Assembly (NCBI GenBank): GCA_036984305.1
Contig: BQWY01000001.1
Location: 992,001-1,056,000, forward strand
Length of the DNA: 64,000 bases
Direction: 5' to 3'
DNA from: Nitrospira sp.
Lineage (GTDB): Bacteria; Nitrospirota; Nitrospiria; Nitrospirales; Nitrospiraceae
Shown: positions 17,333-33,374 of the stretch, one piece after another
Layout of the letters: every line of letters begins with the position of its first letter
How positions within the stretch are numbered: position 1 is the first letter of the stretch
The notes under the pieces: model-generated
Databases searched by the model: none
What the model saw: the letters and a program-made list of their open reading frames with translations, nothing else
What the model was told of the DNA's origin: nothing
Made by a program: the position numbers and the translations under genes

Positions 17333-17488
17333 CCGGTCCATTCCGAACCTTTCCGCTCATCGTATCTCTCCTCCAATTACCGGTGGTTTCTGCTGCAATG
17401 ACGTCGCGTTCCTGCCATCGACGAATACTGCTCGTACCGTGATCTTGAGAACAATTTTCAGTGTTAGAGTGTTCTACCTAGAAGGTGG

Positions 17489-17564: not shown

Positions 17565-18041
17565 ATGAAAGCCAAAGAAGGGGTGATCAATCTCCTCAAC
17601 AAGATCTTGACCGCCGACTTGACCGCCATTAATCAATATTTCGTGCATGCGAAGATGTGTGACAACTGGGGGTATGAGCGACTCCATCATAAGGTGCGTG
17701 AGCGCAGCATAGACGAGATGAAGGACGCCGACGAGCTCATCGGCCATATCCTCTATCTTGAGGGGGTGCCCAATGTTCAACGCATGAACACGGTTCACGT
17801 TGGTGAGACGGTTCCCGAGCAGCTGAAGGCGGACCTCAAGGCCGAGCAGGAGATGTTGGCACTGTTGAGCGAGGGGGTGGTGCACTGCGCCAAGGTTGGT
17901 GATTTCACGACGCGACATATGCTGGAGGATATGGCGAAGGATGTCGACGAGCACATCGACTGGATCGAAACGCAACAGGAGACCATCGAACAGGTGGGGC
18001 TTGAAAATTACCTGGCCGAACAGATCAAGAAGGACAGCTAA
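17565..18041 (+). CDS. bfr: Bacterioferritin, haem-binding type with altered ferroxidase site
   Basis: 158 residues, the same length as E. coli Bfr and aligning to it from memory without gaps. Met52, the haem axial ligand, is kept (SIDEMKDAD). Ferroxidase ligands differ: position 18 is Asp instead of Glu, position 54 is Asp instead of His and position 127 is Val instead of Glu, while Glu51, Glu94 and His130 are kept. This is the pattern of a haem-carrying structural subunit with a weak or absent diiron site. It starts after GAAGGAGG and is followed 48 bases later by a partner with the opposite pattern. The two probably form a mixed 24-subunit iron store. Confidence 0.92.
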   Translation: MKAKEGVINLLNKILTADLTAINQYFVHAKMCDNWGYERLHHKVRERSIDEMKDADELIGHILYLEGVPNVQRMNTVHVGETVPEQLKADLKAEQEMLALLSEGVVHCAKVGDFTTRHMLEDMAKDVDEHIDWIETQQETIEQVGLENYLAEQIKKDS

Positions 18042-18089
18042 TTGCATTCAAGCGGGCAAATAATTCACCAAGCATAGGATTGAAATGAG

Positions 18090-18560
18090 ATGAAAGCCAA
18101 AGAGGGAGTTGTCGAGCGGCTCAATAAGGTCTTGATGGCGGAATTGACGGCGGTTCACCAATATCTTCTGCACGCCGCCAACTGCAAAAATTGGGGCTAT
18201 GAAGCACTACACGAGCACTTCAGCCATTTGGCGCAGGAAGAAGTCGGTCACGCCTCTGGTCTGATGGATCATATCCTGTATCTAAACGGCACTCCGGACG
18301 TACAGCGCCTCGATGAGGTGGCCGGAGGCAAAACGGTGGAGGAATTGCTTAAGGCCGACCTAAAATTTGAAGTCGAAGACCTGGAGCTCTTGCGGGAGTG
18401 TGTCGCCCACTGTGCCAAAGTCGGCGACTTCACGTCACGCCATTTGCTGGAGCACATGCTGATCGATACGGAAGAGCACATCGATTGGTTCGAAACGCAG
18501 CTCCGGGCGGTCAAACAGGTGGGCCTCGACAATTATCTCAGCGAGCAGATCAAGAAGTGA
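18090..18560 (+). CDS. bfr: Bacterioferritin, ferroxidase type lacking the haem ligand
   Basis: 156 residues, close in sequence to the preceding gene. Here Glu18, Glu51, His54, Glu94 and His130 of the diiron centre are present (QEEVGHA around 51-54), with Thr at 127 beside Glu128. The haem-ligand position 52 is Val, so it should not bind haem as E. coli Bfr does. In several Proteobacteria two Bfr subunits divide these tasks in the same shell; the pair here looks like that arrangement. It is co-transcribed with the first gene. Cys residues at 32, 104 and 108 are shared or nearly shared by both proteins. Confidence 0.92.
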   Translation: MKAKEGVVERLNKVLMAELTAVHQYLLHAANCKNWGYEALHEHFSHLAQEEVGHASGLMDHILYLNGTPDVQRLDEVAGGKTVEELLKADLKFEVEDLELLRECVAHCAKVGDFTSRHLLEHMLIDTEEHIDWFETQLRAVKQVGLDNYLSEQIKK

Positions 18561-18758: not shown

Positions 18759-20510
18759 TCACTGATAGTCCTCATTGAGAGACCGTAGAAACGCGGCGAG
18801 TTGCGAAACGTCCCCGGGTGTCAGCGCGATGCCTTGGAGTTGGGGCGCCCCGTTGCGCAAGGTGGCGGCGCGGGCCTGATCCGACGTGCCGCGGTAGAAG
18901 CCGAGCACTGCCTCGAGCGTGTCGAACTGTCCGGTGTGCATGTAGGGAGCAGAGTGGCCGAGATCTCGAAGTCCCGGCGTCTTGAAGCGTGCGACCGCGC
19001 GATCCAGCAGAGTCGAATCCATTACCGGACAAGGGGTCACGTTATCGCACAGGAGTGCGCGCAGCTTGTTCTGTGGACCAGGTATGTCGGGGTTAGCGAA
19101 GGTGTTCCACACGCCGAGATCCGTATGGCCCGGAGTGCCAGCGGAAGGGATGGCTCGAAAGGGCTCCATAGCCGAGGGATGTGCTTCGGTCGCGGGCAGG
19201 TATTGATCATAATCGGAATTGCGGGCCGCGAGACCAGGGATGGCCAGCCCCGCAAATTGGCCCGCGCCGTGAATGTCATCATATTCCTTCTGGGCCGTCC
19301 CGGTGTTGTGAACATTAAAGTCCGTAAAGTTCGGCGCCATATGACACGCGATGCAATTGCCGATCTTTCCAGCAGCGAGTTCGCCTGGGGTCGGCGGGAC
19401 CATAGACGGCTCCTCGAAGAAGGTTTTGAACCCCGCCAGTTCATCCGTACCGAAGACGAAGGGTTGCGTATGAAATTGGAATTGTCCGTCGGGTCGGTTC
19501 GGATTGAATGACACGAATTGAAGGCCTCCAGCAGTTTCACGTGCAACCACGAGCTGCAAGAGACGCCGGCTGTATTCCAAGTCAGTCTCGTTCGGATCTG
19601 GTTGCTGCGGCAGATTATTGACCTCGAGAAAGACGTCGAAGGGCGAACGGATCGGGATCCCGGCCTCGTCGGTTTGCGAAAACAGCAGCCCGTTGACATA
19701 CGCGGCGACAACTTTGACAACGGCATCAAAGACCTCCTGATCTGTCGCAGAAAGCACCTGAGCACGAAACTCAGGAGGAAGCCGAAACTCATCCGGGATG
19801 TCAGGATTCGCTCCAGTAAACAGCTTCCGGTAGGGGAGCCCGTCCAAGTCCTGGGCCAAATCACCGCTCCCATCGTCGTTGCGGACGACGTACGCAACGT
19901 GTGCAATCGCCTGCGCGCGTTCACCTGGGAGCCATCCGAAGTTCCGTCCCGTGAACGTGGCAGCCACGAGGTCTTCCATGGAGTTGAACTCTCCATCGAA
20001 GTGAAACAACACGCCACCGGGACGGTCGAGCGTGGAATTGACGAGAGGCGGGGAATTGCGCGGTGCATGTGTTTTCCCATCCGCTCGCGCGGGGATGGGG
20101 CTGCGCCGGGCTAAATCGGTATACGTCCGCATGCCGCCTCCGGGCGCGCCGAGGACGTCATCGACCATGTGACAGGCTCGGCAGCTCATCGACAGCCCCT
20201 GGAACGGACCGGGAGCAATTGGTGTGCCTGGAGCCATGGTTTCGACCGAGTCCACCACCGGGTCTGCGACCTTTGCGTTGTTGACGTCACCTCCTGCGGC
20301 CAGGAAGGTACTGAACGACTGAGCGAATCTGGATTCGAGAAAAAGACGTTCACCAACGGCTTCTTGGGCGGCTGGTGTACCTGTCTGCTGGACCGTTGGC
20401 GGGGACTCTGTCCCCCCTGAACAGCTGGCCGCCAAGGCAAGGACAGTAATGAAACGTAGAATATGAAAAGGGGATGCGAGGACCTGCTCTTTGACCGTTC
20501 GAGCACCCAT
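18759..20510 (-). CDS. Dihaem cytochrome c peroxidase/MauG-family lipoprotein
   Basis: 583 residues from ATG 20510, with AAAGGAAGG upstream; the open frame reaching 20648 adds unlike sequence. The N-terminus has a hydrophobic stretch ending LAASC, a lipobox, so the mature protein is lipid-anchored outside the cytoplasm. Two haem c sites are seen: SCRACH and NCIACH. The C-terminal FKTPGLRDLGHSAPYMHTG is the usual end of dihaem peroxidases. The family reduces H2O2 with electrons from a small cytochrome or carries out long-range oxidation of partners. At 583 residues it is longer than standard CcpA (about 330), so the substrate is uncertain. It lies 161 bases downstream of the HD-GYP gene. Confidence 0.85.
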   Translation of the reverse strand: MGARTVKEQVLASPFHILRFITVLALAASCSGGTESPPTVQQTGTPAAQEAVGERLFLESRFAQSFSTFLAAGGDVNNAKVADPVVDSVETMAPGTPIAPGPFQGLSMSCRACHMVDDVLGAPGGGMRTYTDLARRSPIPARADGKTHAPRNSPPLVNSTLDRPGGVLFHFDGEFNSMEDLVAATFTGRNFGWLPGERAQAIAHVAYVVRNDDGSGDLAQDLDGLPYRKLFTGANPDIPDEFRLPPEFRAQVLSATDQEVFDAVVKVVAAYVNGLLFSQTDEAGIPIRSPFDVFLEVNNLPQQPDPNETDLEYSRRLLQLVVARETAGGLQFVSFNPNRPDGQFQFHTQPFVFGTDELAGFKTFFEEPSMVPPTPGELAAGKIGNCIACHMAPNFTDFNVHNTGTAQKEYDDIHGAGQFAGLAIPGLAARNSDYDQYLPATEAHPSAMEPFRAIPSAGTPGHTDLGVWNTFANPDIPGPQNKLRALLCDNVTPCPVMDSTLLDRAVARFKTPGLRDLGHSAPYMHTGQFDTLEAVLGFYRGTSDQARAATLRNGAPQLQGIALTPGDVSQLAAFLRSLNEDYQ

Positions 20511-20671
20511 GACGAACCTTCCTTTGTTGAAATTAAAAATACAAGTTCGGCGCCTCTTGTGCTGACTATGGCGGCGTAGGGGCAGGGGGTCTGCGGAGTG
20601 CAGACGCCCTGCCCGGCGAGACAGAGTGGGCACAACCCTGCCTCGCATGAAACGGAACTACACGGGACGGG

Positions 20672-21479: not shown

Positions 21480-21992
21480 CTAGGTCGCTCCCTTCCCTGC
21501 CAAAAACGGTTCCTTCAAGATCCACATCTCATAGAGTGGGATGGCGAAGAGACCAATGAAACTGATGAACATCAGCATGTCCCCGGCCAGCATCGTGAGC
21601 GCAAAGACAGGGGACACGTAGGTGATCAACCAGGGAGAGACCAGATCCAAAACAACTCCCACAAATGAGCCATAGGTCAACCCGGTTTTTATTCGATGGC
21701 TGGTCCCGGTCAGGTAGAGCACATGCACGAGAATCATGAAGACCACCGGCATCGTGAATAAATGAAAGTGCGTGATCTCGGCCAACTCTCGAAACGACAT
21801 GGGTTCGCCGAACGTTCGGTCGTTTCCTCGGTAATGATCCGCCACCCCTTGTAGTGACAAGCTGGTCATGCTGTGCGCCCAGAAGAAGGAAAATAAAAAC
21901 CCCGCCAACATCAGCAGCAAGAACAGCGTATACAACAGTCGAATATGACGATCGGTATCGCGGAGACGAAACTTCGCATTGAAGTTGCGCAT
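21480..21992 (-). CDS. Four-helix inner-membrane protein of the flavoprotein operon
   Basis: 170 residues with four predicted membrane helices (about 19-42, 76-97, 102-124 and 126-150). Histidines sit at helix ends or inside: FFWAHS in helix 1, THFHLF and ILVHVLY in helix 2. Such placement would allow b-type haem binding or quinone contact, but no established family is recognised. It lies 14 bases after the FMN-binding gene and is the last gene before a terminator. The simplest inference is that it is the membrane partner passing electrons to, or taking them from, the periplasmic flavoprotein. This is a guess from context. Confidence 0.6.
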   Translation of the reverse strand: MRNFNAKFRLRDTDRHIRLLYTLFLLLMLAGFLFSFFWAHSMTSLSLQGVADHYRGNDRTFGEPMSFRELAEITHFHLFTMPVVFMILVHVLYLTGTSHRIKTGLTYGSFVGVVLDLVSPWLITYVSPVFALTMLAGDMLMFISFIGLFAIPLYEMWILKEPFLAGKGAT

Positions 21993-22006: not shown

Positions 22007-22699
22007 TCAGAACCCGAACAAGGACTCCAAAAAGCCCTTGTCTCTCTGTTGCGCCGCGATCTGGTCGCTCCCGATCCCCTGGGGCTTCAAATAGAATTCA
22101 TCGATCAAAACCAGAACTCGTTTGACTCCGGCGCTCATGGAGCGGACCGACATGGTGGCCCCGCTGATATTGATGATATCTTTATTGATGCGAATGGGAT
22201 CAAATACCGTCTTTCCCTCGTATTGGACATTGAACCGCTTCGTCCGCACTTCACTGCCGCGTGCTTCGCGGAATACCAATAATTCAACCGCCAAGCATTC
22301 GCCTTGTGCATCGGCCGCGACCATGTAGGTCATCGGCTTATGCTTCCCGATGGTATTTTGGATCACGGCGTAACCGTCGATCCGATTGCCAGTCTGCGCA
22401 ATGAAGATTTCGAATCCTTGCTCGGGGAATTTCCAGCCGATCCGCTCTTCAATCTGGTGCTTCTGCTCAGGGTTGAGCCGAATGGTTTCGGTTCGAATGC
22501 GATCGGAGTTCTTAAAGATGAGATGGAGCGCATCCTCCTCAGTCAGGTATACCTCCGCGTGCATCATTTCCTGTTCCGTCAAATATCGCCTGAGCTCGGT
22601 GTCCCAAATTCGCTCGGCCCGAGCATCCGGAGGCACAGAACTCGCGAACATGAACATAATTCCACAGAGACCAATGGCGATGGTTAGGTAACGGAACAT
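22007..22699 (-). CDS. Exported FMN-binding-domain protein with flavinylation motif
   Basis: 230 residues from ATG 22699, with AGGGA upstream. A signal peptide or N-terminal anchor (FRYLTIAIGLCGIMFMFASSV) is visible. Residues 85-190 fit the FMN-binding domain of RnfG/NqrC type, ending with NISGATMS. Thr182 in SGAT is the position to which ApbE transfers FMN through a phosphoester bond. An apbE gene lies 3 kb away, facing the other way from a shared control region, which fits this being its target. It overlaps the preceding lipoprotein gene by 16 bases. Likely role: one-electron carrier in the periplasm, perhaps in ferric reduction; the substrate is unknown. Confidence 0.82.
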   Translation of the reverse strand: MFRYLTIAIGLCGIMFMFASSVPPDARAERIWDTELRRYLTEQEMMHAEVYLTEEDALHLIFKNSDRIRTETIRLNPEQKHQIEERIGWKFPEQGFEIFIAQTGNRIDGYAVIQNTIGKHKPMTYMVAADAQGECLAVELLVFREARGSEVRTKRFNVQYEGKTVFDPIRINKDIINISGATMSVRSMSAGVKRVLVLIDEFYLKPQGIGSDQIAAQQRDKGFLESLFGF

Positions 22700-23145
22700 C
22701 CGTGATCCCTCAGCTTTGTTTTGATTCGGCCGAGCGCTTCGGCCGTAGCCTCCTCGGAAGGGTCGATCGGCCACCATTTGGTGGCCTGTTGACTGACGCC
22801 TCCACGGGCGTGCCAGCGTTGGCGATTTTCTAAGACACTGATCGAAGACGTGTCTCCCAGTTGCCTGACTGCCACCGTCATCCTGGCCCGCTCATAATTA
22901 CCAAAGCCCTCGCGGCTGAAAACTCCAAATGAGCGATCTGCGGCGGGCACTTCCAACCAAGCCGTCTCGATACGACCGCTGATCTTGTCTTGGGACGTGA
23001 TGGAGTACCCTTTCATGGCCTCGACCGTGGATTCCCATGCGGTATCATAAGGACAGACGACATATTGCTCGCGGGAGCCGCTCAAGGAGGCGCAGCCGGC
23101 AACAGCGAACATCAAGACGACAAGTACCCAATGCTGCATTCTCAT
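22684..23145 (-). CDS. Hypothetical lipoprotein
   Basis: 153 residues from ATG 23145; an open extension to 23196 looks unlike a signal sequence. HWVLVVLMFAVAGC is a lipoprotein signal with Cys as the acylation site. The mature part has alternating strands (TAWESTVEAMKGYSI, GRIETAWLEV, RARMTVAVRQ) resembling small outer-membrane-associated lipoproteins, but I cannot name a family. It sits 71 bases after the porin and overlaps the FMN-binding gene by 16 bases, so it belongs to the same transcript. It may help place the redox protein at the envelope. Confidence 0.65.
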   Translation of the reverse strand: MRMQHWVLVVLMFAVAGCASLSGSREQYVVCPYDTAWESTVEAMKGYSITSQDKISGRIETAWLEVPAADRSFGVFSREGFGNYERARMTVAVRQLGDTSSISVLENRQRWHARGGVSQQATKWWPIDPSEEATAEALGRIKTKLRDHGCSVT

Positions 23146-23216
23146 GTGTCGCTTAAACAGGATAGCCGGAGTAGTTCCAGGCAGAGGAGGAGCCACTCCG
23201 GCCTCCCGACTTCCGT

Positions 23217-24704
23217 TTAAAAATAAGTGGCAGCGGATATCACGAGTGCTTGGTCGTGAATCTGCTGCCCCGTATTAGGATTAAACGACTTCGGCAAATA
23301 CTGATAGCTGATTTTAAAGACGGCATCCTCGATCGGACGGTAATTGAGTCCGAAAGAAATCTGCTCCAGATTGCCTTCGCTTTCTCCCCGATTATCCATA
23401 TTGAGATTGACACGATCGTAGCGGATGACCGCCGTAAACGTGGATCCCTCTCCAAACCGCTTGGGCGACCAATTGGCCAGGAACTTCGGCATGAAATGAT
23501 AGTTGCCTTGGATGTAAAAGCCCGCCATGCGCTGAGGTGGGGCTGCGTTCGGATTCAACGTGTTCACGCCGGTGAGGAGCGTGCCAGGCGCGGCGCCGAA
23601 GGTATTCCCAGTAATCGCACGGGAATTACCGCGTGCATAGGCCCATGCGGCTTCCCCGATCAGTTCGAACGGACCGCGTTGGAAAGTCCAATCCACGGCC
23701 ATGATGCTGAGGGGGTTGTAGCTGGTCGCTGATCCGTTCCCGAAGTAGCCTGAACCGCCCACTTCTGCGCCCAGCCAGGGGCTGAACGCGAGACGTCCCG
23801 AAACGGCTTTTCCATTATTGATGTCCAGGCCGTCATCAGAGGGACATTTGCGCTGGCGCGAATTCCGTGTGCCGCTTTCCTCATTCATACGAGGACTGCC
23901 GTCCGTGTTGAATCCGCACGGGCCGGTGGTCACGTAGAATTCATAGTCCAGTTTACTGGTGCGCCCTGGGTAGAATGTCCCATAGAAACCCGCACCAGTT
24001 TCCGCCATGGTGGTTGGAATGACAAACCGGTCGACGAGCGGCCGATCGGTCAAGTCATTCAGCGGCGAATCGTGCAAGAGGTTGAATTTGCCGATCGGTA
24101 TCAGGACGATTCCGGCTCGAATGTTGAACGGCTCGTTCACCAGGTAGTCAATCATGGCGAACTCAAGCCCGATTTCGGCTCCCTGCGTTGCATCTTCTCG
24201 GATACCATGTTCGATCTCGAGCTCAGAGGCAAACTTCACGTGCTCGGTGATGTCCGCATAGATGAAGGGCACAAACCGTTGTTGATCGAACCCGTTGGTC
24301 GTGCCGTTCCCAAAGCCGCCCGTCTCAAGAACCGCGTTCTTCTGGGTACGATACTGGATGTCTGCGTATCCGCCCACGACGGCCTTCGGAGCCGAGACGA
24401 AGGGCTTGGCATATACGAGACGTCCTGAACCAGTGGATCCGAAAGAGAGGTGTGCCTTTTCTTCGCCGGGACGCTCCACTGCGATCTCCGTCATTGGGCC
24501 GGTCGCTTTAGGATATTGCTCGGCCGCTGCATCCGGTTCACCAGGCTGCATCGGCCCTTCTCGACGCTGACGCTCTTGCAATCGTTTCTCCACGGCCTCG
24601 TCTACCATCTTTCGTATTTCTTCGGGGGTCATCTCTTCCGCCAACGCCGGCATGACCGGCAGGCTAGCGATCACCAGGGTCCCGAGGATTGACCGAATCC
24701 TCAT
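23217..24704 (-). CDS. Outer-membrane porin, phosphate-selective-porin (OprO/OprP)-like
   Basis: 495 residues with a cleavable signal peptide (RSILGTLVIASLPVMPALA), then a charged helical segment (MTPEEIRKMVDEAVEKRLQE) typical of trimeric porin N-termini. The rest is beta-rich: YADIQYRTQ, VKFASELEIEHGI, TSKLDYEFYVTTGP, GSTFTAVIRYDRVNL, and it ends in ATYF with a terminal Phe, the outer-membrane assembly signal. It is most like O/P-type porins; the solute cannot be told from sequence. GCGGAGG precedes the ATG. It is transcribed from the Fur-box promoter region, with the 58-residue zinc protein upstream by 128 bases. Presence in a flavoprotein operon is unusual. Confidence 0.8.
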   Translation of the reverse strand: MRIRSILGTLVIASLPVMPALAEEMTPEEIRKMVDEAVEKRLQERQRREGPMQPGEPDAAAEQYPKATGPMTEIAVERPGEEKAHLSFGSTGSGRLVYAKPFVSAPKAVVGGYADIQYRTQKNAVLETGGFGNGTTNGFDQQRFVPFIYADITEHVKFASELEIEHGIREDATQGAEIGLEFAMIDYLVNEPFNIRAGIVLIPIGKFNLLHDSPLNDLTDRPLVDRFVIPTTMAETGAGFYGTFYPGRTSKLDYEFYVTTGPCGFNTDGSPRMNEESGTRNSRQRKCPSDDGLDINNGKAVSGRLAFSPWLGAEVGGSGYFGNGSATSYNPLSIMAVDWTFQRGPFELIGEAAWAYARGNSRAITGNTFGAAPGTLLTGVNTLNPNAAPPQRMAGFYIQGNYHFMPKFLANWSPKRFGEGSTFTAVIRYDRVNLNMDNRGESEGNLEQISFGLNYRPIEDAVFKISYQYLPKSFNPNTGQQIHDQALVISAATYF

Positions 24705-24832
24705 GATCTGCCTCCGCTAAGCAAGAAAGTTATTGGTCTGACTCGGGACTCGCTGGTCTCTGGTCTGCTTCGTTTTGACAACGAGCGTGATCGTTGTGTG
24801 ACCAAACCTCCTTTCTGAATACGGTTAGTAGA

Positions 24833-25009
24833 CTAATTTGTTCCGGACGACCATCCTTCGATCGCGCTGAAGGGGATAATCACGATGCGCTTGCATCGTT
24901 TGCATTTCAATTCGAGCCCGGTTGAGCAAATTTTTGCGATCAACTGACCGCATTCGCAGCGGGTTTCACTCGGCTGGGACACGGTCTGTTGCGTAATGGT
25001 TTGATTCAT
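24833..25009 (-). CDS. 58-residue zinc-ribbon (Com-like) protein
   Basis: A short frame running from ATG 25009 to TAG. The product has CECGQLIAKIC and then LELKCKRCKRIVIIP, i.e. two CxC/CxxC knuckles around a short strand pair. This resembles the phage Mu Com-type zinc finger family (RC..CG.LLAK...LE.KCPRCK). Com proteins bind mRNA or DNA; small chromosomal relatives are mostly unstudied. It is the first gene after the Fur-box promoter (16 bases from box to start) and precedes the porin, so it should respond to iron. A regulatory role for this operon is possible. Confidence 0.65.
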   Translation of the reverse strand: MNQTITQQTVSQPSETRCECGQLIAKICSTGLELKCKRCKRIVIIPFSAIEGWSSGTN

Positions 25010-25024
25010 GATCGGTTCTGAAAT

Positions 25025-25039
25025 TGAGAACGATTATTA
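25025..25039. promoter_or_regulatory. Fur box
   Basis: TGAGAAC-G-ATTATTA compares with the 7-1-7 Fur consensus TGATAAT-N-ATTATCA with 11 of 14 positions matching. It overlaps the -10 element of the minus-strand promoter, so Fur with iron would block transcription of the zinc-ribbon, porin and flavoprotein operon. It lies 125 bases before the plus-strand lipoprotein gene and may control both directions. A fur gene is in the same island. Confidence 0.65.
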
Positions 25040-25066
25040 ATATCTCGCATGTCGCAGAAATGTCAA
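25037..25066 (-). promoter_or_regulatory. Sigma70 promoter of the flavoprotein operon
   Basis: On the minus strand a perfect TTGACA (25061-25066) is followed after 18 bases by TATTAA (25037-25042). The predicted start is near 25030, about 20 bases before the first codon at 25009. The -10 element lies partly in the Fur box. Confidence 0.65.
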
Positions 25067-25163
25067 GTAGAAGATTTCCAGTCGACTTGATAGAAAACAA
25101 ATTGAGAGTCAGCGCTCCCCCTATGTCTGGACAAGCGTTTGAATGTCCTGATTAAATGGCTAC

Positions 25164-25799
25164 ATGTTGGGGGGGGAACGGTGGAGTTTGAGGTGGAGTC
25201 TGTTTGGGCTTGTGGTGCTCCAGTTCCTCTCTCTTGTCTCCTGTGCGTCCAGCGTTGGCATGAGCCCCGACGACTCTGGCGGTCCGAATACAGGCGAGTC
25301 TCTCGTGGCGGCTCGAGTCATTACGGTCCTGCTCGAGCGTCCCGGGCGCATGTACGATCCATCACTTATTTTCTTTGAACTGCAACATGAGGCGACTGGC
25401 GAACGCTTTCGTGTCGATGTTGAGAATGCCGACAAGGTCGTGGTTTTTCAGGTTCCCCCCGGTTCTTATCAAGTGACCCGTGTGCAGATCGGGGAAGGGC
25501 CGTTTCGGTCGATGGCGAACCTCGCACTTGAATTTCAGGTGGAAGGAGGGCGGCCTGTCTATTTGGGCACGTGGCGCATTGGCGTGGAGAGTCCACGATC
25601 AGATCGGAAGGTGTTGATCTCGACCGTCAATGGGTCGCCGGAACAAGACAAGGATCTGGGCGTTGTTATGACCGAATATCCCGAGGTGACGGCGCAGGAT
25701 TTCCGAGTCGCGGCGTTGACTCCCCCCGAGACTGAAGCTCGTCTATACGAAGTCATGCCGTATCCACGATATCAACCGTATTTCCGCAGGCATTGGTAG
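25164..25799 (+). CDS. Hypothetical lipoprotein preceding apbE
   Basis: 211 residues. The N-terminus FGLVVLQFLSLVSC is a lipoprotein signal with Cys about 27 residues in. The mature part has a compact beta-type domain (SLIFFELQHEATGERFRVDV, FQVPPGSYQVTRVQIG, YLGTWRIGVES) suggestive of a carboxypeptidase-regulatory or transthyretin-like fold, but no family is certain. It ends YPRYQPYFRRHW. Start ATG 25164 has no clear ribosome site, though a G-run follows it. It is immediately followed by apbE (10 bases), so both form a divergent unit from the Fur-box region. A role in the flavoprotein system is inferred from position. Confidence 0.65.
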   Translation: MLGGERWSLRWSLFGLVVLQFLSLVSCASSVGMSPDDSGGPNTGESLVAARVITVLLERPGRMYDPSLIFFELQHEATGERFRVDVENADKVVVFQVPPGSYQVTRVQIGEGPFRSMANLALEFQVEGGRPVYLGTWRIGVESPRSDRKVLISTVNGSPEQDKDLGVVMTEYPEVTAQDFRVAALTPPETEARLYEVMPYPRYQPYFRRHW

Positions 25800-25809
25800 G
25801 GTGGTGTCC

Positions 25810-26850
25810 ATGCTGATACGGCGCATGGGCGTCTGGGCCATCGCCGCCCTGAGTCTTGTGCAGGTCGGTGCGCTGGATGGGTGTCGCAGCGAACGATCCT
25901 TGTTTCGTCCGTCGTCCCACGCGCTCGTCAAACGGGCCCAAATGCACATGGGCACGCTGGTCACGCTGACGGTCGTGGCGCCCACGCATGCGATTGCTCA
26001 GGAAGCCGTTGCCGAAGGGTTCACAGAGATTCGCCGGCTGGAGGCTTTGTGGAGCGCGTGGATTCCAACCAGCGAAATATCTCAAGTCAACGCATCGGCT
26101 GGTCGCGCTCCCGTTTCCGTCAGCGAGGAAACGATGATACTTTTGAGACGATCGATGGAGGTCTTCCAGGTTACGGAAGGCGGTTTCAATATCGCCCTCG
26201 GGCCCGTCGTCGATGCATGGGGGATCAGTCGTGAGCCACGAGTGCCAGGGGCACAGGAGCTGGATCGGCTCCGGTCGCTGATCGAGCTTTCGAGTATGCA
26301 ATTGGATCCCAAGGCAGGCACCGTGTATCTCCCGGAGCCAGGCATGCGGATCGATATTGGTGGAATCGGAAAGGGCTACGCAGCGGATCTGACGGCAGCG
26401 GTGCTCCGCAATCGCGGCGCGACGGCCGGCGTCGTGGCGTTGGCGGGCGATATCAAGACATTCGGAGACCTTCCCGATGAGGCGGGGTTTTCATTCGCAA
26501 TACAGCATCCGAGAAAGTCAGGAGCGGTGCTGGCCAGACTGAATTTGAAAGATGACGCCGTGTCGACCGCGGGAGACTACGAGCGTTTTTTCGAGCAGGA
26601 TGGTGTCGTGTACCACCACATCTTGGACCCGAACACGTTGCGTCCTGCGCGAGGATGTCAGAGCGTGACGATCGTGGCGAAAGAGGGTGTATGGGCAGAT
26701 GGACTCGATACCGGCATTTTCGTTCTTGGGCCCGAGCGCGGAATGGCGCTAATCGAGTCACTCCCAGATGTCGAAGGTGTGATCGTTGATGCGGAGGGGC
26801 GTGTGTCGATCTCGAGCGGTCTCCAGGGACGCGTCCAGTTGGAACCGTGA
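25810..26850 (+). CDS. apbE: FAD:protein FMN transferase
   Basis: 346 residues. Lipoprotein-like N-terminus with GALDGC (the Asp before Gly-Cys is unusual for a lipobox). ApbE motifs: QMHMGTLVTLTV, DIGGIGKGYAAD, ALAGDIKTFG, VSTAGDYERFF, HHILDPNTLRPA and ADGLDTGIFVLG, covering the FAD and metal sites. ApbE moves FMN from FAD onto Thr or Ser in SGAT-type motifs outside the cytoplasm. The matching target is the protein at 22007-22699. ATG 25810 is preferred over GTG 25801, which directly follows the previous stop. It converges on tonB with only 5 bases between stops. Confidence 0.93.
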   Translation: MLIRRMGVWAIAALSLVQVGALDGCRSERSLFRPSSHALVKRAQMHMGTLVTLTVVAPTHAIAQEAVAEGFTEIRRLEALWSAWIPTSEISQVNASAGRAPVSVSEETMILLRRSMEVFQVTEGGFNIALGPVVDAWGISREPRVPGAQELDRLRSLIELSSMQLDPKAGTVYLPEPGMRIDIGGIGKGYAADLTAAVLRNRGATAGVVALAGDIKTFGDLPDEAGFSFAIQHPRKSGAVLARLNLKDDAVSTAGDYERFFEQDGVVYHHILDPNTLRPARGCQSVTIVAKEGVWADGLDTGIFVLGPERGMALIESLPDVEGVIVDAEGRVSISSGLQGRVQLEP

Positions 26851-26855
26851 CTCGA

Positions 26856-28118
26856 TTATGAGCGTTTCTTCAGCGAATATCGGATGGGAACTTGCAGGGA
26901 AATGCGCTCCTTGCCTAGCGGGCGTTCGAGCTTGAGTGGAGAGAGCCGTTGCAACAGCGCAACGGCTTCCTCGTCGAGAATCGGATAACCCGATGACTTG
27001 ACGATGGTCAGATCTTCGATGGTGCCGTTGTTCGTGACCACTAGTTTCACCACAACCTTGCCCTGCCAATCCTTCAGTCGGGCTTCCGCCGGGTAGCGAA
27101 TCGTTTCCGATATTCTTCCCATGAGACCTTGTGCCAGCCACGAGTAGTCGACTTTCTCAGGTGCCGGAGAGGAGGTCGGGGCAGATGCCGGTGAGGACGG
27201 CGGTGAAAGGCTCGCAACCTGAGGAGGAGGCGAGGGTGCTGGTGCTGTTTCGACGGGAGGCGTCGATTCCGACAACGAAGAGGGCTGTTCTGGCATGATG
27301 GGCGATTCCGTATTCGTCGGTTCCAGACTGGGAGCGTTGTTGGTTGAATTCGCCTGCGTCGGCTCAACCGATTGGTCGTCTGGGGTTGTGGCCGATGGTC
27401 CCATAAATTCATCATGCAAAGTGGGTGAAGCGAGAGGTGGTGGCACCTCGGTAGCCGTCGACGGTTCCGTCACGGCCTGTCGTGAGGCCTGCAATTCCGC
27501 CAATGGGGTGTTCGGAGCAGCCTTCGGTGTGGTCGATGCGGAAGGGAGGTCGCTGGCATCCGGTATGGACGTGGACATCTCCAGCGACGCCGGAGGGGCA
27601 ACTTCGCTTGGGGCTTCCGGAGGAGCGACTCGGGCCACAAGCGGGGTCGGGTTGGGTTCAGTTCGGGCACCTGCCGTGGCTGGATCGGTCAGCGGGGTGG
27701 GCCGCAGTTCGACCGGAGGTCTTGCAGCCTCAGCGCCCGCGAGTGGCTGGGGTGTGGGAGGTTGATGTTCAAAAGGTGGAACATTGGTTTCTGTCTGGGT
27801 CACGGACTGTAGGGGCTGTGAAGAGGATGCCTCTCGGTAATGACGAGCAGTAGGCTCCGAAGCATCCGGAGGCGGACTTGCGTGATGAGGAACGCTGTCA
27901 CCAATCTTGGACGAGTCTGGAGTTCGAGGTGCAGCCGAATCTGGAGAATGCACGACCGCGACCTCCCATCGGAAGGGCTCTGGCTGAGGGGCCAGGCGCA
28001 GGGATGTCACAAAGAGAACCGACAACCCCACCAGAACACCGTGTAGAGCGCATGACAGGAGCCAGCCTTGAAGTCGGCCGTACGCATACACTGGCGTGTG
28101 GGCCGACGGTGAAATCAC
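26856..28118 (-). CDS. tonB: TonB energy-transducing protein
   Basis: 420 residues, long for TonB. One N-terminal helix (GWLLSCALHGVLVGLSVLF) contains the conserved Ser-His face that contacts ExbD. About 250 residues of Pro/Ala/Ser/Thr-rich linker can span the periplasm. The C-terminal domain has ISETIRYPAEARLKDWQGKV, VVKLVVTNNGTIEDLTIVKS and GYPILDEEAV, the classic TonB fold. It overlaps exbD by 4 bases and ends the iron-uptake run. It would energise TonB-dependent receptors, but none is encoded in this window, so the partner receptor is elsewhere. Confidence 0.92.
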   Translation of the reverse strand: MISPSAHTPVYAYGRLQGWLLSCALHGVLVGLSVLFVTSLRLAPQPEPFRWEVAVVHSPDSAAPRTPDSSKIGDSVPHHASPPPDASEPTARHYREASSSQPLQSVTQTETNVPPFEHQPPTPQPLAGAEAARPPVELRPTPLTDPATAGARTEPNPTPLVARVAPPEAPSEVAPPASLEMSTSIPDASDLPSASTTPKAAPNTPLAELQASRQAVTEPSTATEVPPPLASPTLHDEFMGPSATTPDDQSVEPTQANSTNNAPSLEPTNTESPIMPEQPSSLSESTPPVETAPAPSPPPQVASLSPPSSPASAPTSSPAPEKVDYSWLAQGLMGRISETIRYPAEARLKDWQGKVVVKLVVTNNGTIEDLTIVKSSGYPILDEEAVALLQRLSPLKLERPLGKERISLQVPIRYSLKKRS

Positions 28119-28489
28119 GATCGCACCACCTCCAGGCTGACCTGGTGAAACCCCAGTCCTCGCACTTCGTCGACCACTCCAACGAACCGTTCTAATCGCG
28201 TCACACGATCCGCTCTCACGAGGACTGACGAATCGCGTGAGTGAGGGGTCAACCCTGTCTTTAAACCTTCGGTCGTCACCGGATGATCGTTGAGGTATAG
28301 GTCGCCCTCTGCGGTCAACGTGATGACCAGCGGGACGTCCCGGCGGTCGCCTGCTTCCTTTGCTTTGGCGAGGTCAACGGGGATTTGCCCGGTCGTGATA
28401 AAGGTGGCGGTGGTCATGACGATGACCAATAGCACCAGCATCACATCCACCAAGGGGATGACATTGATCTGGTTCAGTTCACGATCCAT
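28115..28489 (-). CDS. exbD: Biopolymer transport protein ExbD
   Basis: 124 residues. NQINVIPLVDVMLVLLVIVM is the single membrane helix with the proton-conducting Asp, followed by TGQIPVDLAKAKEA and a periplasmic domain ending with VRADRVTRLERFVGVVDEVRGLGF, all matching ExbD/TolR. With ExbB it forms the proton-driven motor for TonB. Overlaps exbB by 11 bases and tonB by 4, so the three are translationally coupled. A Tol role is less likely because tonB is adjacent and no tolB or pal is near. Confidence 0.94.
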   Translation of the reverse strand: MDRELNQINVIPLVDVMLVLLVIVMTTATFITTGQIPVDLAKAKEAGDRRDVPLVITLTAEGDLYLNDHPVTTEGLKTGLTPHSRDSSVLVRADRVTRLERFVGVVDEVRGLGFHQVSLEVVRS

Positions 28490-28904
28490 GTTGCACCCGA
28501 TGCAAGGTGAGCAGCTCTGCGACCCGACGGCGGAGCACGTTGTTCATGACGACACAGGGGATCGCCACCAGGAGGCCCACAGCCGTGGCTTTCAGAGCGA
28601 GGCTGAGTCCGATCATAATGGTACTCACGGCCATCTGGCCCGAGGTACCCATCGTATGGAAAGTCAGCATAATCCCGAGCACGGTTCCCAGAAGTCCGAT
28701 ATAGGGGGCATTGGCAGCGACGGTTCCGATCACAACCAGGCGCTTCGTAAGCTCGACCTCGAACACCTGCTGATTGGGAAACGATCGCGGATCCACCCGA
28801 CGGTAGAACAACCACCGCTCGACGGCGACGGCGACCGACCAGAGACTCAGTAGCAGCAGCAGGCCAATGATCCCGTAATCAACGGCTTCTTTAAGTAGAT
28901 CCAT
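28479..28904 (-). CDS. exbB: Biopolymer transport protein ExbB
   Basis: 141 residues from ATG 28904, with GGAG six bases upstream. An open extension to 29072 overlaps the preceding ABC ATPase gene and is not supported. There are three membrane helices, with NAPYIGLLGTVLGIMLTFHT and ALKATAVGLLVAIPCVVMNN, the conserved MotA/TolQ/ExbB core. It is short for ExbB (commonly 200 or more), lacking a large cytoplasmic loop extension, but the motor core is complete. Confidence 0.92.
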   Translation of the reverse strand: MDLLKEAVDYGIIGLLLLLSLWSVAVAVERWLFYRRVDPRSFPNQQVFEVELTKRLVVIGTVAANAPYIGLLGTVLGIMLTFHTMGTSGQMAVSTIMIGLSLALKATAVGLLVAIPCVVMNNVLRRRVAELLTLHRVQHGS

Positions 28905-28968
28905 GCGGAACTCCCGGTCCAGGACAATAGGGCCAACCCATACCGATAGCTGAACCTGGAAAGACCTG

Positions 28969-30204
28969 TCAACCTTCGGGCGGAGGGGACGGAAACCGGT
29001 GCGGTTTGGCTGGCTCCTGTTCCGGAGTGGGGCGGGTCGGAACCGCCCCCGGCTGTGTCTCCAACCGCGCATCTGGGAATACGACTGTGTGAGAGACGAA
29101 GGTTGACAGTGTCACCTTAGCGCCGATCGGGTAGACGGCCGTCGAGGCCTCGCTGCTGTGAACGACGCGGCCGGACCGTAACCGAATGCGGTAGAGGTTC
29201 TCGGAACCCCTGAATTGACGCGCCAAGATCGTGGCATCTCCCGCCCCAGCCGAGGAGATACACACGTCGTCAGGACGGATCATGACGACCACGGAGGTGC
29301 CGGCGGGGATGGATTTCTGATGGACGAATTCGCCCAGTTCGGTGACGACCTTGTCGTGTTGGGCCACGCCTGGAATGAAATCGGCCTGGCCCACGAAATC
29401 AGCTACGAAGGGAGTGGCGGGCAGGTGATAGATCATCTCGGGCGTATCGAGCTGCTCCAAGCGGCCGTGATTTAAGACGGCGATACGGTCGGCGATGGCG
29501 AAGGCCTCATCGTGATCGTGCGTCACGAGAACCGTCGTGGTATTGGTCCGCTTCAGGAGACTGTGCAGTTCCTGCCGCATATGCGTGGCCATGTCGGGAT
29601 CGAGATTGCTGAACGGTTCGTCCAGCAGCAGGATCACGGGATTGTGCGCGAGCGCACGGGCAAGAGCCACGCGTTGCTGCTGCCCACCCGAAAGCTCATG
29701 CGGGTAACGCCGTTCCATCCCCGTGAGACCGGTGAGGGCCAGCATGGCGGTAATGCGTGCATTCCGCTGTGGTTCGGCCATGCCTCGCAGACCGAACCCG
29801 ATGTTCTCGGCGACCCGAAGATGGGGAAACAGCGCATACTCCTGGAAAACCATCCCGACACTCCGTTGCTCGGTGGGCACTTGAGTATCCGTCGATGACA
29901 CAAGGCGGCCGCCTAACCGAATGTCGCCCGTCGTTACCGGCTCAAAGCCGGCAATGGCCCGGAGGACGGTCGTCTTCCCACAGCCTGACGGGCCCAGCAG
30001 GCAGACGATTTCCCCGGATCGCACGGCGAGGGAAATGTCTTGGACGGCAGGGCGAAGTGGGTCGTAGGCGCAGCTCACCTGTCGAAGCTCGAGAACCACG
30101 GGCGTATCCAATCGCACGCGTCCCGAACCTGGCTCATGCAACACGTCCGCGCCGCCGACTGCGGAATGTTTGCTCCCGGTGCGCGAAGACCCGTCCGACT
30201 TCAT
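28969..30204 (-). CDS. fbpC: Ferric iron ABC transporter, ATP-binding protein
   Basis: 411 residues from ATG 30204. It contains Walker A GPSGCGKTT, Q-loop FQEYALFPHL, signature LSGGQQQRVALARAL, Walker B ILLLDEPFSNLD and H-loop VTHDHDEAFAIAD. The C-terminal TOBE-like part (VMIRPDDVCIS...) is typical of FbpC/PotA-type ATPases. A 30-residue N-terminal extension is less conserved and the true start could be further in. It overlaps fbpB by 4 bases. Together with fbpA and fbpB it forms an importer, most likely for Fe3+. Confidence 0.9.
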   Translation of the reverse strand: MKSDGSSRTGSKHSAVGGADVLHEPGSGRVRLDTPVVLELRQVSCAYDPLRPAVQDISLAVRSGEIVCLLGPSGCGKTTVLRAIAGFEPVTTGDIRLGGRLVSSTDTQVPTEQRSVGMVFQEYALFPHLRVAENIGFGLRGMAEPQRNARITAMLALTGLTGMERRYPHELSGGQQQRVALARALAHNPVILLLDEPFSNLDPDMATHMRQELHSLLKRTNTTTVLVTHDHDEAFAIADRIAVLNHGRLEQLDTPEMIYHLPATPFVADFVGQADFIPGVAQHDKVVTELGEFVHQKSIPAGTSVVVMIRPDDVCISSAGAGDATILARQFRGSENLYRIRLRSGRVVHSSEASTAVYPIGAKVTLSTFVSHTVVFPDARLETQPGAVPTRPTPEQEPAKPHRFPSPPPEG

Positions 30205-31802
30205 GTCGCGATCTCCGTATTCTTCCAATCTCTGGCTACCAGCAGCGCCAGCGCAGGGAGACTCAGCACTACGATCAATAAGGCCGGTGCCGCTGCCGAC
30301 GTGTACAGTTCTTCACTTGCTTCCAACCAGACGCGCACGGCCAGCGTGTCGAACCCGACAGGTCGCAGGAGCAGAGTCGCCGGGAGTTCCTTCATGCATT
30401 GCAGAAACATCAGGGTCCATGCGCTCACGAACCCATTCCAAATCAAGGGAATGGTCACGCGGCGCAGGGCCCCCCCAATGTTGCACCCCAATGTGCGCGC
30501 CGCTTCCTCGACGTTCGGGGTGACCTGTTGAATCGCGGGCTCAAGCGACTGGAGCCCGACGGGCAGATAATGCACCACATACGCCAAAATCAACAAGTAC
30601 ACCGTGCCGTACACGCCGGGGACCACAGCGATGGCCAACACAAGCAGGGCCAGCGCTGCGACCGGACCAGGCAGCACGTAGCCGGCATACGTCGCGTGCA
30701 GGCACACGTGGTTCAGCCATGTCGGCTGTCGAGTTGCCAGGTAGGCGACGGGAATGCCCAATAGGACCGCCGACGAGGCCGCCATACCCGACAACAGGAT
30801 GGTGTTCCAGGTGAACTCGATGAATCGGTGATCGAGGAGGCCTTCCTGGAAGGCATCCGTGCTCCACCACATCAAGAGGCCGGCTGGGATGCCGAACGAG
30901 AGGAGAAACGTCGATGCCGTGATCACCAGCGCGCCCATTCGTCCCGCCAGGGAGAGAGGTTGAGGCGTGGGCCGTCGAAACCGTCCACCCGTTTGGTAGA
31001 AACGGCTGCGGTTCCTGAACCAGCGCTCGCTGGCGAAGAACACGATGGCAAACACGACGAGCAATACGCTTAGGACACTAGCCGCGGCATAATCATAACG
31101 TCCGGTCATCTGCTGGTACACCGCGTAAGTGAGTGTCTGATAGCGCAAGAGTGAGACGGCACCGAAGTCAGACACCACGTACAAGACGACCAGCGAAACC
31201 CCGGCAAAAATGGACGGGCGAAGCAGAGGCAGCGTGACCCGGAGAAACGTCTGCCAGGGGCGAATCCCGCAGGAGCGCGCCACTTCCTCGAACGAGACGT
31301 TCATGCTTAATAACGCGGTTCGTGTCAGCAGATACACGAAGGGAAACGTGTCCAATGCCATGACCACCGTGACGCCCCAGAACGATTGAGGTGCAAAGAT
31401 ATGGGTCCCTGGTCCGGCGATGGCTTGCCAAAACCGATCGACCGGCCCGTGCGTTCCGAGCAAGTAGGAGTACACGTACGCCAGGACATACGTGGGCATT
31501 GCCAGCGGCAGCACGAGCGCCCATTCCCAGATCCGGCGGCCCGGGAAATCCAGTCGAGTCACCAGCCAAGCGAGCGACACGCCCAAAGCGAACGTCAGCA
31601 GCCCAACGCTGCATGCCAGCGAAAAGGTGTTCCACAGCAGCTCGGGAAGGCGGGTTCGCCACAGGCGGCCCCAGATGGCCGTGTCCGCGGTGAGGGCCCG
31701 ATACATGACGTAGAGGAGGGGGAGGGAAAGGAGTCCGGCGATACCCACCACGAGCACTTGCATGGGCGAGAGCGCATGGTGGCGAAGTACCGAGGCGGTC
31801 AT
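30201..31802 (-). CDS. fbpB: Ferric iron ABC transporter, permease
   Basis: 533 residues; ATG 31802 is used (TTG 31811 is also in frame). About twelve membrane helices in two homologous halves, each with an EAA-type loop: EEVARSCGIRPWQTFLRVTLP in the first and EEAARTLGCNIGGALRRVTIP in the second. This fused two-domain permease is the FbpB/CysTW-like form used for iron import. It lies 16 bases after fbpA and overlaps fbpC by 4. Confidence 0.92.
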   Translation of the reverse strand: MTASVLRHHALSPMQVLVVGIAGLLSLPLLYVMYRALTADTAIWGRLWRTRLPELLWNTFSLACSVGLLTFALGVSLAWLVTRLDFPGRRIWEWALVLPLAMPTYVLAYVYSYLLGTHGPVDRFWQAIAGPGTHIFAPQSFWGVTVVMALDTFPFVYLLTRTALLSMNVSFEEVARSCGIRPWQTFLRVTLPLLRPSIFAGVSLVVLYVVSDFGAVSLLRYQTLTYAVYQQMTGRYDYAAASVLSVLLVVFAIVFFASERWFRNRSRFYQTGGRFRRPTPQPLSLAGRMGALVITASTFLLSFGIPAGLLMWWSTDAFQEGLLDHRFIEFTWNTILLSGMAASSAVLLGIPVAYLATRQPTWLNHVCLHATYAGYVLPGPVAALALLVLAIAVVPGVYGTVYLLILAYVVHYLPVGLQSLEPAIQQVTPNVEEAARTLGCNIGGALRRVTIPLIWNGFVSAWTLMFLQCMKELPATLLLRPVGFDTLAVRVWLEASEELYTSAAAPALLIVVLSLPALALLVARDWKNTEIAT

Positions 31803-31818
31803 GGGCGGCAACGCGTCG

Positions 31819-32883
31819 TCAGCGGAGGCCAGCGTCTTCGATGAGCATCATCGTGGGCTCACGTAGTTCGGCCAACCTGGCGAGCGGAACGAGCGCGGCT
31901 CGAAAGGAGTCGCGTGGTGGCAGGGCAGGATCAGCCTGGACTTCGGGGTGTAGCGGATACTCCTTGTTAAGCTCGGCAAACATTTTCTGCCCGGCCTGGG
32001 CCACAAGAAATTCCACGAGAAGTTTGGCGCTGTCGAGGTGCGCGGTGCCTTTGAGCACGCCGATGCCGGCCACGTTCATGATGGCGCCCATACCGCCCTC
32101 CTGCTGGTCTGGCATCAGCGCGGCGATGGGAGCGTTTGGGTCTTGGGCCAGTTGTCGGTACACATAATAGTGGTTCACGATGCCTACTCCGACCTCGCCT
32201 TTCGACACGGCATCCACGATTTGCGAGCTCTTTCCGTATACGCGGTTGCCGGCATTGTTTTTCAACCCCTTCAAGAACGCGGTCGTGCGGTCATGTCCCT
32301 GTGCGGCCTTGATGACCGATATGCCGGCCTGGAGATATTCGCTTCCCGCGTTGGGGATCGCAATCTTCCCTTTCCATTTGGGATTGGCCAGATCGAGCAA
32401 CGAGGTGATCTCCTCGGGTTTGACCTGCTTGGTGTTGTACACGACGATCCAAAATCGACCCGACAGTCCGATCCAACTGTTGTCGGCCGCACGGAACTGC
32501 GACGGGATCGCCCGGTCGACTTCACGCAGATTCATCGGGCGAAACAATCCCAGTTCGCGCGCACGCTCAAGGCTTCCGGCGTCATTGGTGATCAGCACGT
32601 CGGCAGGCGTCCGGTCGCCTTCCACCTGCAGGCGATTGACGAGCTCGGTGGTCCCGGAGGATAGCAATTCCACCTGAATTCCCGTTTTGGTCTGGAAGGC
32701 GTCGAGGACAGGCTTGATCAACCGCTCGGCTCGCCCCGAATAGACCACGAGCGTGTCGGCCGCCTCCGACGGCACGACGGAGAGTAGCAACGTCATGAAC
32801 CCCAGAAAGAGCACGGTCCAATATGTCGAGCGACGGGGGGTGTAGCCGTCTTGAGCTGGAACATGTTGAAATTGAAACATCAT
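31819..32883 (-). CDS. fbpA: Ferric iron ABC transporter, periplasmic binding protein
   Basis: 354 residues from ATG 32883 (a second ATG follows directly). Signal peptide: TVLFLGFMTLLLSVVPSEA. The mature protein begins TLVVYSGRAERLIKPVLDAF, the FbpA start, and has FWIVVYNTKQV, NPKWKGKIAIPN and GIVNHYYVYRQLA, in which the Tyr-Tyr pair matches the iron-coordinating dityrosine of FbpA proteins. It ends with NKEYPLHPEV. It starts 29 bases after fur; the gap has a 9-base T-run on this strand (32898-32906), but the stem before it is weak. Confidence 0.9.
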   Translation of the reverse strand: MMFQFQHVPAQDGYTPRRSTYWTVLFLGFMTLLLSVVPSEAADTLVVYSGRAERLIKPVLDAFQTKTGIQVELLSSGTTELVNRLQVEGDRTPADVLITNDAGSLERARELGLFRPMNLREVDRAIPSQFRAADNSWIGLSGRFWIVVYNTKQVKPEEITSLLDLANPKWKGKIAIPNAGSEYLQAGISVIKAAQGHDRTTAFLKGLKNNAGNRVYGKSSQIVDAVSKGEVGVGIVNHYYVYRQLAQDPNAPIAALMPDQQEGGMGAIMNVAGIGVLKGTAHLDSAKLLVEFLVAQAGQKMFAELNKEYPLHPEVQADPALPPRDSFRAALVPLARLAELREPTMMLIEDAGLR

Positions 32884-32912
32884 CTCAATACGACACCAAA
32901 AAAAAGCGCCCC

Positions 32913-33374
32913 TCAATTCCGGCACTTGGAGCAGAGGCCATACAACTCCAATTTGTGGGTTGTGATCGTAAAGCCGTGTTTCGATGCGACTTCATCCTGA
33001 AGCCGTTCAATATCCTCGTTCTCGAACTCGACAATCCGATTGCATCCTGTGCAGATCAAATGATCGTGATGCCCCTTATGCGAGACGTTGTCGTACTGGG
33101 TTTGCGATCCAAAGTGACGGGCTTGCGCCAAACCCACGTCGCAAAACAGATTGAGGGTACGATAGATCGTGGCCAAACCCAAGTGTGGATCCTTACGAGC
33201 TAACTCGTGATACATCTGCTCGGCCGTGATGTGTTCCTTTTTCAGAAACTCGACCAAGATCAGTTCGCGTTGGCGGGTGAGCTTGAGATTGTTCTTAGCC
33301 AGATGGCTGCGAAGCGCGTCCATCTCCTTGGGGGATTTCACTGCATGGGTCTTGCCCGGCATAGCAATGCTCAT
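32913..33374 (-). CDS. fur: Ferric uptake regulator Fur
   Basis: 153 residues. The winged-helix domain has KLTRQRELILVEFLKKEHITAE and LGLATIYRTLNLFCDVGLA. The metal region has HKGHHDHLICTGCNRIVEF and a C-terminal ELYGLCSKC, so both metal sites and the zinc Cys pairs are present. This fits Fur better than PerR or Zur. Start may be ATG 33374 or ATG 33362: a possible promoter (TTGACC at 33397-33402 and CTTTAA at 33374-33379, spacing 17) runs into the first ATG and would favour 33362. Fur probably acts at the box at 25025 and on the fbp-exb-tonB genes behind it. Confidence 0.93.
   Translation of the reverse strand: MSIAMPGKTHAVKSPKEMDALRSHLAKNNLKLTRQRELILVEFLKKEHITAEQMYHELARKDPHLGLATIYRTLNLFCDVGLAQARHFGSQTQYDNVSHKGHHDHLICTGCNRIVEFENEDIERLQDEVASKHGFTITTHKLELYGLCSKCRN

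Follow-up and report, generated by a model that had tools for sequence, protein, structure and literature searches.

A near-invariant candidate Fur operator in the promoter of a zinc-ribbon and porin gene unit of Nitrospira

A short conserved block at 25019-25045 of the window (the whole 64,000-nucleotide stretch of Nitrospira DNA analyzed here) is very probably a Fur operator lying within a sigma-70-type promoter, where it is predicted to bind Fur and repress the leftward gene unit. That Fur binds here and acts as a repressor is well supported by inference from sequence, because the box is near-invariant and is also found at fur in sister family f2 and at bfd, and because the genome encodes one Fur-type and one PerR-like regulator.

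The core of the element, TGAGAACGATTATTA at 25025-25039, is a box of the 7-1-7 type that matches the Fur consensus (TGATAATNATTATCA) at 11 of 14 positions, as the initial annotation had read it. A second 7-1-7 repeat, shifted by 6 bp (25031-25045), matches at 10 of 14 in consensus scoring, and in the 19-bp consensus reading 25026-25044 gives the top score of the window (15/19, the runner-up at 53623 scoring 14). The left half-site carries TGA, while the right half-site ends in TTA rather than TCA. The box straddles the -10 of a leftward promoter, which, with TTGACA and GATATT, matches at 10 of 12 positions overall and was the only promoter-like match that a promoter scan returned in 24705-25200. 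Either GATATT or TATTAA is possible as the -10. The annotation had placed the box over the -10 of a promoter with a perfect TTGACA, and we found the same, with GATATT sharing bases with the box. The zinc-ribbon start codon is 15 bases from the box. Repeats near the box amount to one short palindrome, at 25077-25090. The elements of the site are as follows.

25019-25045: conserved operator block, containing both 7-1-7 repeats and the 19-mer; the minus strand reads GATATTAATAATCGTTCTCAATTTCA over 25044-25019
25066-25061, minus strand: perfect -35 element TTGACA; its TTGAC is invariant across the 30-locus footprint, at a set distance from the box
25044-25039, minus strand: candidate -10 region GATATT, 16-bp spacer, from the promoter scan
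25042-25037, minus strand: candidate -10 region TATTAA, 18-bp spacer, from reading the sequence by eye

The setting of the box is one of iron genes, with TonB-ExbBD, bacterioferritins, an ApbE and an FMN-binding protein, an ABC importer and fur. The annotation had put a fur gene 8 kb away, and a Fur-family gene does lie at about that distance.

17446-17460: TGAGAACAATTTTCA, another Fur-like box, located 104 bases upstream of the first bacterioferritin gene
17565-18560, plus strand: two tandem bacterioferritin genes
21480-21992, minus strand: 170-aa protein without a Pfam match, membrane-like by eye, with a relative in the same order in loci L139 and L140
22007-22777, minus strand: FMN-binding-domain protein (FMN_bind 26.6 bits, cut-off 22)
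22684-23196, minus strand: 170-aa protein without a Pfam match, judged lipoprotein-like by eye
23217-24704, minus strand: outer-membrane porin (Pfam Porin_O_P 24.1 bits, cut-off 20.9)
24833-25009, minus strand: zinc-ribbon protein of 58 aa (CxC-CxxC), weakly Com-like, first gene of the leftward unit
25164-25799, plus strand: divergent 211-aa protein without a Pfam match, lipoprotein-like by eye
25801-26850, plus strand: ApbE, FMN transferase family
26856-29072, minus strand: tonB, exbD and exbB
28969-32925, minus strand: ABC transporter (ATPase, permease, binding protein)
32913-33374, minus strand: fur, with E, not D, at the PerR-type position (by eye, from alignments)

Given ApbE, TonB-ExbBD and the ABC importer nearby, the locus resembles one for iron uptake that includes a flavin redox step. 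The nearest NCBIfam models of the importer are mostly aminoethylphosphonate transporters, and since every transporter match falls below its cut-off, iron as the cargo is suggested by context. Ten proteins of the locus were searched against Pfam, and none matched PepSY. Between the bacterioferritins and the porin unit, 18759-20648 encodes a large MauG/cytochrome c peroxidase-like protein (weak model matches), a relative of which is found near a motif site without a zinc ribbon in locus L136.

A consensus match of this quality proves nothing by itself, since the genome as a whole shows no enrichment of raw consensus sites. Sixty dinucleotide shuffles of the window gave a mean of 0.98 sites at 11/14 or better, or about one per 64 kb, and in intergenic shuffles (n = 2000) an equally good site arose in 1.7% (for 25010-25163) to 2.6% (for 24705-25163). 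The whole genome (4.35 Mb) holds 56 sites at 11/14 or better, against about 67 from the scaled-up window shuffle rate. As chance yields as many, we rejected the 11/14 match as stand-alone evidence. The annotation's statement that this was the only good Fur box did not hold up, because TGAGAACAATTTTCA at 17446-17460 ties with it at 11/14. The claim of a Fur box is carried by conservation and gene context.

We examined conservation using footprints at the zinc-ribbon, bfr, fur and bfd genes, each built from the 30 best loci of its search with our own genome included; the sequences in them are related by descent. All 30 top-ranked zinc-ribbon loci carry the block CTTGACA-N-GATATTAATAATCGTTCTCAATTTCA in a gap-free alignment, between flanks that mostly hold less than 0.5 bits; 26 of them share the same 15-bp core and the other 4 deviate from it by a single base. 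Mean pairwise identity over 30 loci is 0.954 for the box, 0.72 for the DNA of seven codons of the zinc-ribbon gene and 0.266 for a nearby flank. An AATTTCA extension beyond the core is conserved as well.

More widely, 94 of the 147 relatives contain the 21-mer TAATAATCGTTCTCAATTTCA with at most 3 mismatches, compared with 2 hits for a reversed-motif control, and 86 of 103 motif sites are upstream of a zinc-ribbon gene. Eight of the 17 sites away from zinc ribbons have neighbors without a recognizable iron link (G136 left out). Zinc-ribbon relatives themselves are present in 117 of the 147 genomes. We compared gene and motif over 120 rows from 111 of these 117 genomes, the weakest rows being omitted: the motif (at most 3 mismatches) accompanies the gene in 66 of the 71 genomes of our own family and in 20 of the 40 from outside it, and is absent at that threshold in the remaining 5 and 20, respectively. 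Among the motif-less zinc-ribbon genomes that we inspected, four (G007, G019, G030 and G105) have nothing at 15/21 or better, four from family f3 (G092, G108, G123 and G134) have 16 or 17 matches out of 21, and in G062 the sequence ends at the zinc-ribbon gene.

Named loci gave the same picture. Among the best 80 of the 136 found (almost all with Nitrospira or Nitrospirae in the title, and one of them the complete genome of N. defluvii), the box matches at 18/21 or better in 79 (59 loci at 21/21, 13 at 20, 5 at 19 and 2 at 18), the outlier being L185 at 10/21. Within these same best 80, the distance from TTGAC to the box is constant in 76, a porin follows directly after the zinc ribbon in 73 and a divergent ApbE or lipoprotein-like gene is present in 76.

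The box is also found at other promoters. In our own genome, a strong Fur-like box, TGATAACGGTTCTCA at C1:2766125, directly follows TTGACA-17-TAAAAT and stands ahead of an ORF (MYICLCKG...CCGRC) for a putative Bfd, judged by its CxC and CxxC motifs and by below-cut-off model matches (Fer2_BFD, 24.1 bits, E 4.7e-5, cut-off 26; NCBIfam Bfd, E 0.0005). This bfd-like gene adjoins bfr in some relatives, such as G021 and G031. Matches to bfd were found in 67 of 89 genomes and to bfr in 64 of 89, and the 30 best loci were used for each. For bfd, which was found via a Fur-consensus search and whose boxes were placed by best match, an upstream box of at least 10 bits is present in 30/30 loci (0.7% of mononucleotide shuffles) and one of at least 15 bits in 18/30 (0.07% of shuffles). 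These boxes run TGA...TCA in all 30 loci, with a mean pairwise identity of 0.849 versus 0.954 for the zinc-ribbon box, and TGATAACGGTTATCATAATCG and TGAGAATGCTTCTCATAATCG are among them, so the half-site TGAGAAY is in use. The motif of the lineage would be roughly TGAKAAY-N-RTTMTCA.

At bfr, a box of at least 10 bits is present in just 3/30 loci and the exact sequence of 17446-17460 recurs in 2/30, our own genome included; we therefore rejected the bfr box as a conserved element. Both bfr and BFD are named in figure legends of PMC12903955.

We inspected 38 consensus sites of our own genome, 7 of them picked by eye from part of the genome-wide list, with ORFs called crudely as the longest of at least 70 aa. 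Seven of the 38 are not wholly within an ORF, a count made on the searched sites (an earlier scoring took the best site of each locus), and three of these seven lie upstream of bfd, of a BFD-like gene and of a TonB gene, respectively. The seven sites are listed below.

L264: site at the bfd-like gene (bacterioferritin-associated ferredoxin), L264:1488-1774, equal to G000:C1:2766087-2766373
L009, C1:296283: Fur-like box before a TonB_C gene
L010, C1:301735: Fur-like box before a BFD-like ORF (model match below cut-off)
L008: site at a DUF481 gene
L265: site between an ORF without a match and a lactate/malate dehydrogenase gene
L011 and L086: the remaining two sites

A TonB receptor is encoded at C1:308866, no more than about 13 kb from the L009 and L010 boxes. 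At the loci of 5 TonB receptors, matrix scoring returned no strong box, the best reaching 7.0 bits.

Outside the family of the window, the box changes partners. No zinc ribbon was found in the 8 genomes of f2, and in 5 of them (G088, G094, G097, G100 and G102) the same box is at or just before fur; in G088 and G100 it is additionally before a porin. In locus L139, the order runs fur, binding protein, permease, ATPase, porin, 170-aa protein, FMN protein and membrane-like protein. In f3 the motif takes forms such as TAATAATGGTTATCA and TAATAACAATTCTCA, drifting from TTCTCA to TTATCA; read as sequence, these changes are ones that a Fur box allows. The best 30 fur loci, including our own, have a good box in 0/30, and fur autoregulation in our own family was rejected on that count. 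A weaker site (16/21) is near the fur start in G011, which is outside those 30. Loci with a box at fur comprise L140:18002, L130, L131 and L139 (f2 and, weaker, G011). Within the order, autoregulation of fur may have arisen or disappeared.

The annotation had further forecast that a position-weight-matrix scan would rank the site first in the window, and two matrices did so. The first was built from 13 distinct sequences among the 30 bfd boxes and holds no sequence from a zinc-ribbon promoter; as a 15-mer it scored 25025 at 18.7 bits versus 18.3 for the bfr box, and as a 21-mer at 21.0 versus 14.9 for the next place. The second, drawn mostly from other families (24 distinct 21-mers, 23 from f2 and f3, including some unpaired sites, and 1 own-family fur site), gave 39.3 versus 17.9, although it is not independent because some members have a 15-mer identical to that of the window site.

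Our genome encodes two Fur-family proteins, one from the window fur and one from C1:3624756. The best solved relatives of the window protein are 6d57 and 4ets, which we take to be Campylobacter Fur proteins, and it has E in the segment IVEFEN. The second regulator has as its best solved relative 2fe3, presumably the peroxide regulator PerR of Bacillus, and by eye shares its D. We take D at this position to be the PerR-type mark, present in the second regulator and replaced by E in the window Fur. All NCBIfam Fur/PerR model matches of both proteins are below cut-offs; from sequence, the window regulator looks Fur-type and the other PerR-like. Of 147 genomes, 136 encode a relative of the window Fur at E of 2e-57 or better and 5 have weaker ones only (7e-19 to 9e-16); in the other 6 none was found. 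In relatives such as G005, G009 and G016, and in the whole locus L140, fur and the zinc-ribbon gene lie 7-8 kb apart.

The presence of a PerR-like protein raises the question of whether the block could be its operator, or one common to both regulators, with the locus answering mainly to peroxide. The PerR box consensus is TTATAATNATTATAA, with outer bases TTA...TAA. The TTA of our right half-site resembles these outer bases, but the box as a whole departs from them in reading TGA on the left and TTA on the right, and the bfd boxes with the same core read TGA...TCA throughout. Given also that fur is in the locus, at a maintained distance in relatives, and that the f2 box is at fur itself, we consider a PerR operator very unlikely. 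The chance-match explanation draws on the expectation of about one such site per 64 kb and on the lack of genome-wide enrichment. However, chance would not preserve at least 18/21 positions in 79 of the best 80 of 136 named loci beside a flank of just 0.266 identity, and we give this reading a vanishingly small probability.

A different cause, for example a second regulator, a leader RNA or promoter strength, might also keep the block conserved, its Fur-like look being secondary. The greater uniformity of the zinc-ribbon box over the bfd boxes and the conservation of the AATTTCA extension would fit this. Yet the same core is found in other iron-gene promoters, the f3 drift follows positions that Fur allows, and the overlap of operator and -10 would account for much of the constraint on the box, making this explanation highly improbable.

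We therefore return to the Fur operator and propose the following. When iron is sufficient, metal-bound Fur would sit on approximately 25019-25045 as one or two overlapping dimers, the two-dimer geometry being suggested by the 7-1-7 repeats at 25025 and 25031, 6 bp apart. Bound Fur would cover the -10 and the start region and thereby block RNA polymerase. When iron is short, Fur would depart and the leftward unit, encoding the zinc-ribbon protein and the porin, would be transcribed; the following leftward genes, including that for the FMN-binding protein, are probably co-transcribed. Fur binding, iron dependence, operon extent and iron as cargo are all points that we infer.

The annotation had described a divergent control region. 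Its leftward half stands, with a promoter under the box; for the rightward half, the scan of 24705-25200 gave the leftward promoter alone. Across 77 loci, a promoter-like match in the divergent direction was present in 23, versus 10.1 expected from mononucleotide shuffles, and 15 of these overlap the box. The distance from box to divergent gene ranges from -255 to 696 (median 111). Control of 25164-25799 and ApbE by the box is undecided.

A passage of PMC7536154 presents the Fur operator as two 7-1-7 repeats offset by 6 nucleotides, modelled on PDB 4rb1. The window element resembles such operators (19-bp Fur boxes) in its 7-1-7 form, the repeat shifted by 6 bp, the -10 overlap, the iron genes and the nearby Fur; it differs in its TGAGAAC and TTA half-sites, its AATTTCA extension and its tighter conservation than the bfd boxes. 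Passages of PMC8238504 tie ApbE/FMN-binding gene clusters to iron assimilation and cite Fur repression for PepSY-like clusters. Our locus is like the clusters described there in having ApbE and an FMN-binding protein beside transport genes, but its unit is led by a zinc-ribbon protein and a porin, and the word "porin" occurs 0 times in the main text of that paper.

The bfd promoter offers a further comparison. At these promoters the core motif is likewise present, here in all 30 bfd loci, but the bfd box of our own genome is just behind the -10 and is more variable between species than the zinc-ribbon box. In other bacteria, bfd is under Fur control.

The zinc-ribbon protein itself has no Pfam family of its own. 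It resembles Com, the translational regulator of phage Mu, in being a small CxC/CxxC ribbon and in its PHROG matches ("translational regulator", E 0.0017; "gpCom", E 0.0029). In contrast to Com, the window protein does not match Pfam Zn_ribbon_Com, which 3 of 20 aligned members match weakly (best E 0.041). Its predicted fold (mean pLDDT 77.9, three short strands) has no PDB match at E of 0.001 or better, the best being at E 2.3. Some genomes carry several zinc-ribbon copies and several porins. As a speculative proposal, which we hold to be rather doubtful, the protein could be a regulator of the Com-like kind, itself under Fur control, adjusting how the porin behind it is translated or transcribed. 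The unit would form a Nitrospira route for iron uptake in which the metal enters through a porin and is handled by a covalent-flavin protein, and its near-invariant operator would in that case be the master iron switch of these nitrifiers.

Nitrite oxidizers of the genus Nitrospira have a high iron demand for haem and iron-sulfur enzymes. The Fur of Nitrosomonas europaea has reportedly been the subject of an earlier study; in the literature that we searched for Nitrospira with Fur or iron, we found no description of Fur sites in Nitrospira. The Fur operator is a known kind of element, and its Nitrospira member is new so far as that literature goes. The predicted Fur targets are the zinc ribbon-porin unit, bfd and perhaps bfr and a tonB gene. 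What is distinctive is the zinc ribbon itself and the unusual uniformity of its operator compared with that of bfd. The conserved unit of porin and flavin protein is a likely iron-uptake route, headed by an unstudied zinc-ribbon protein.
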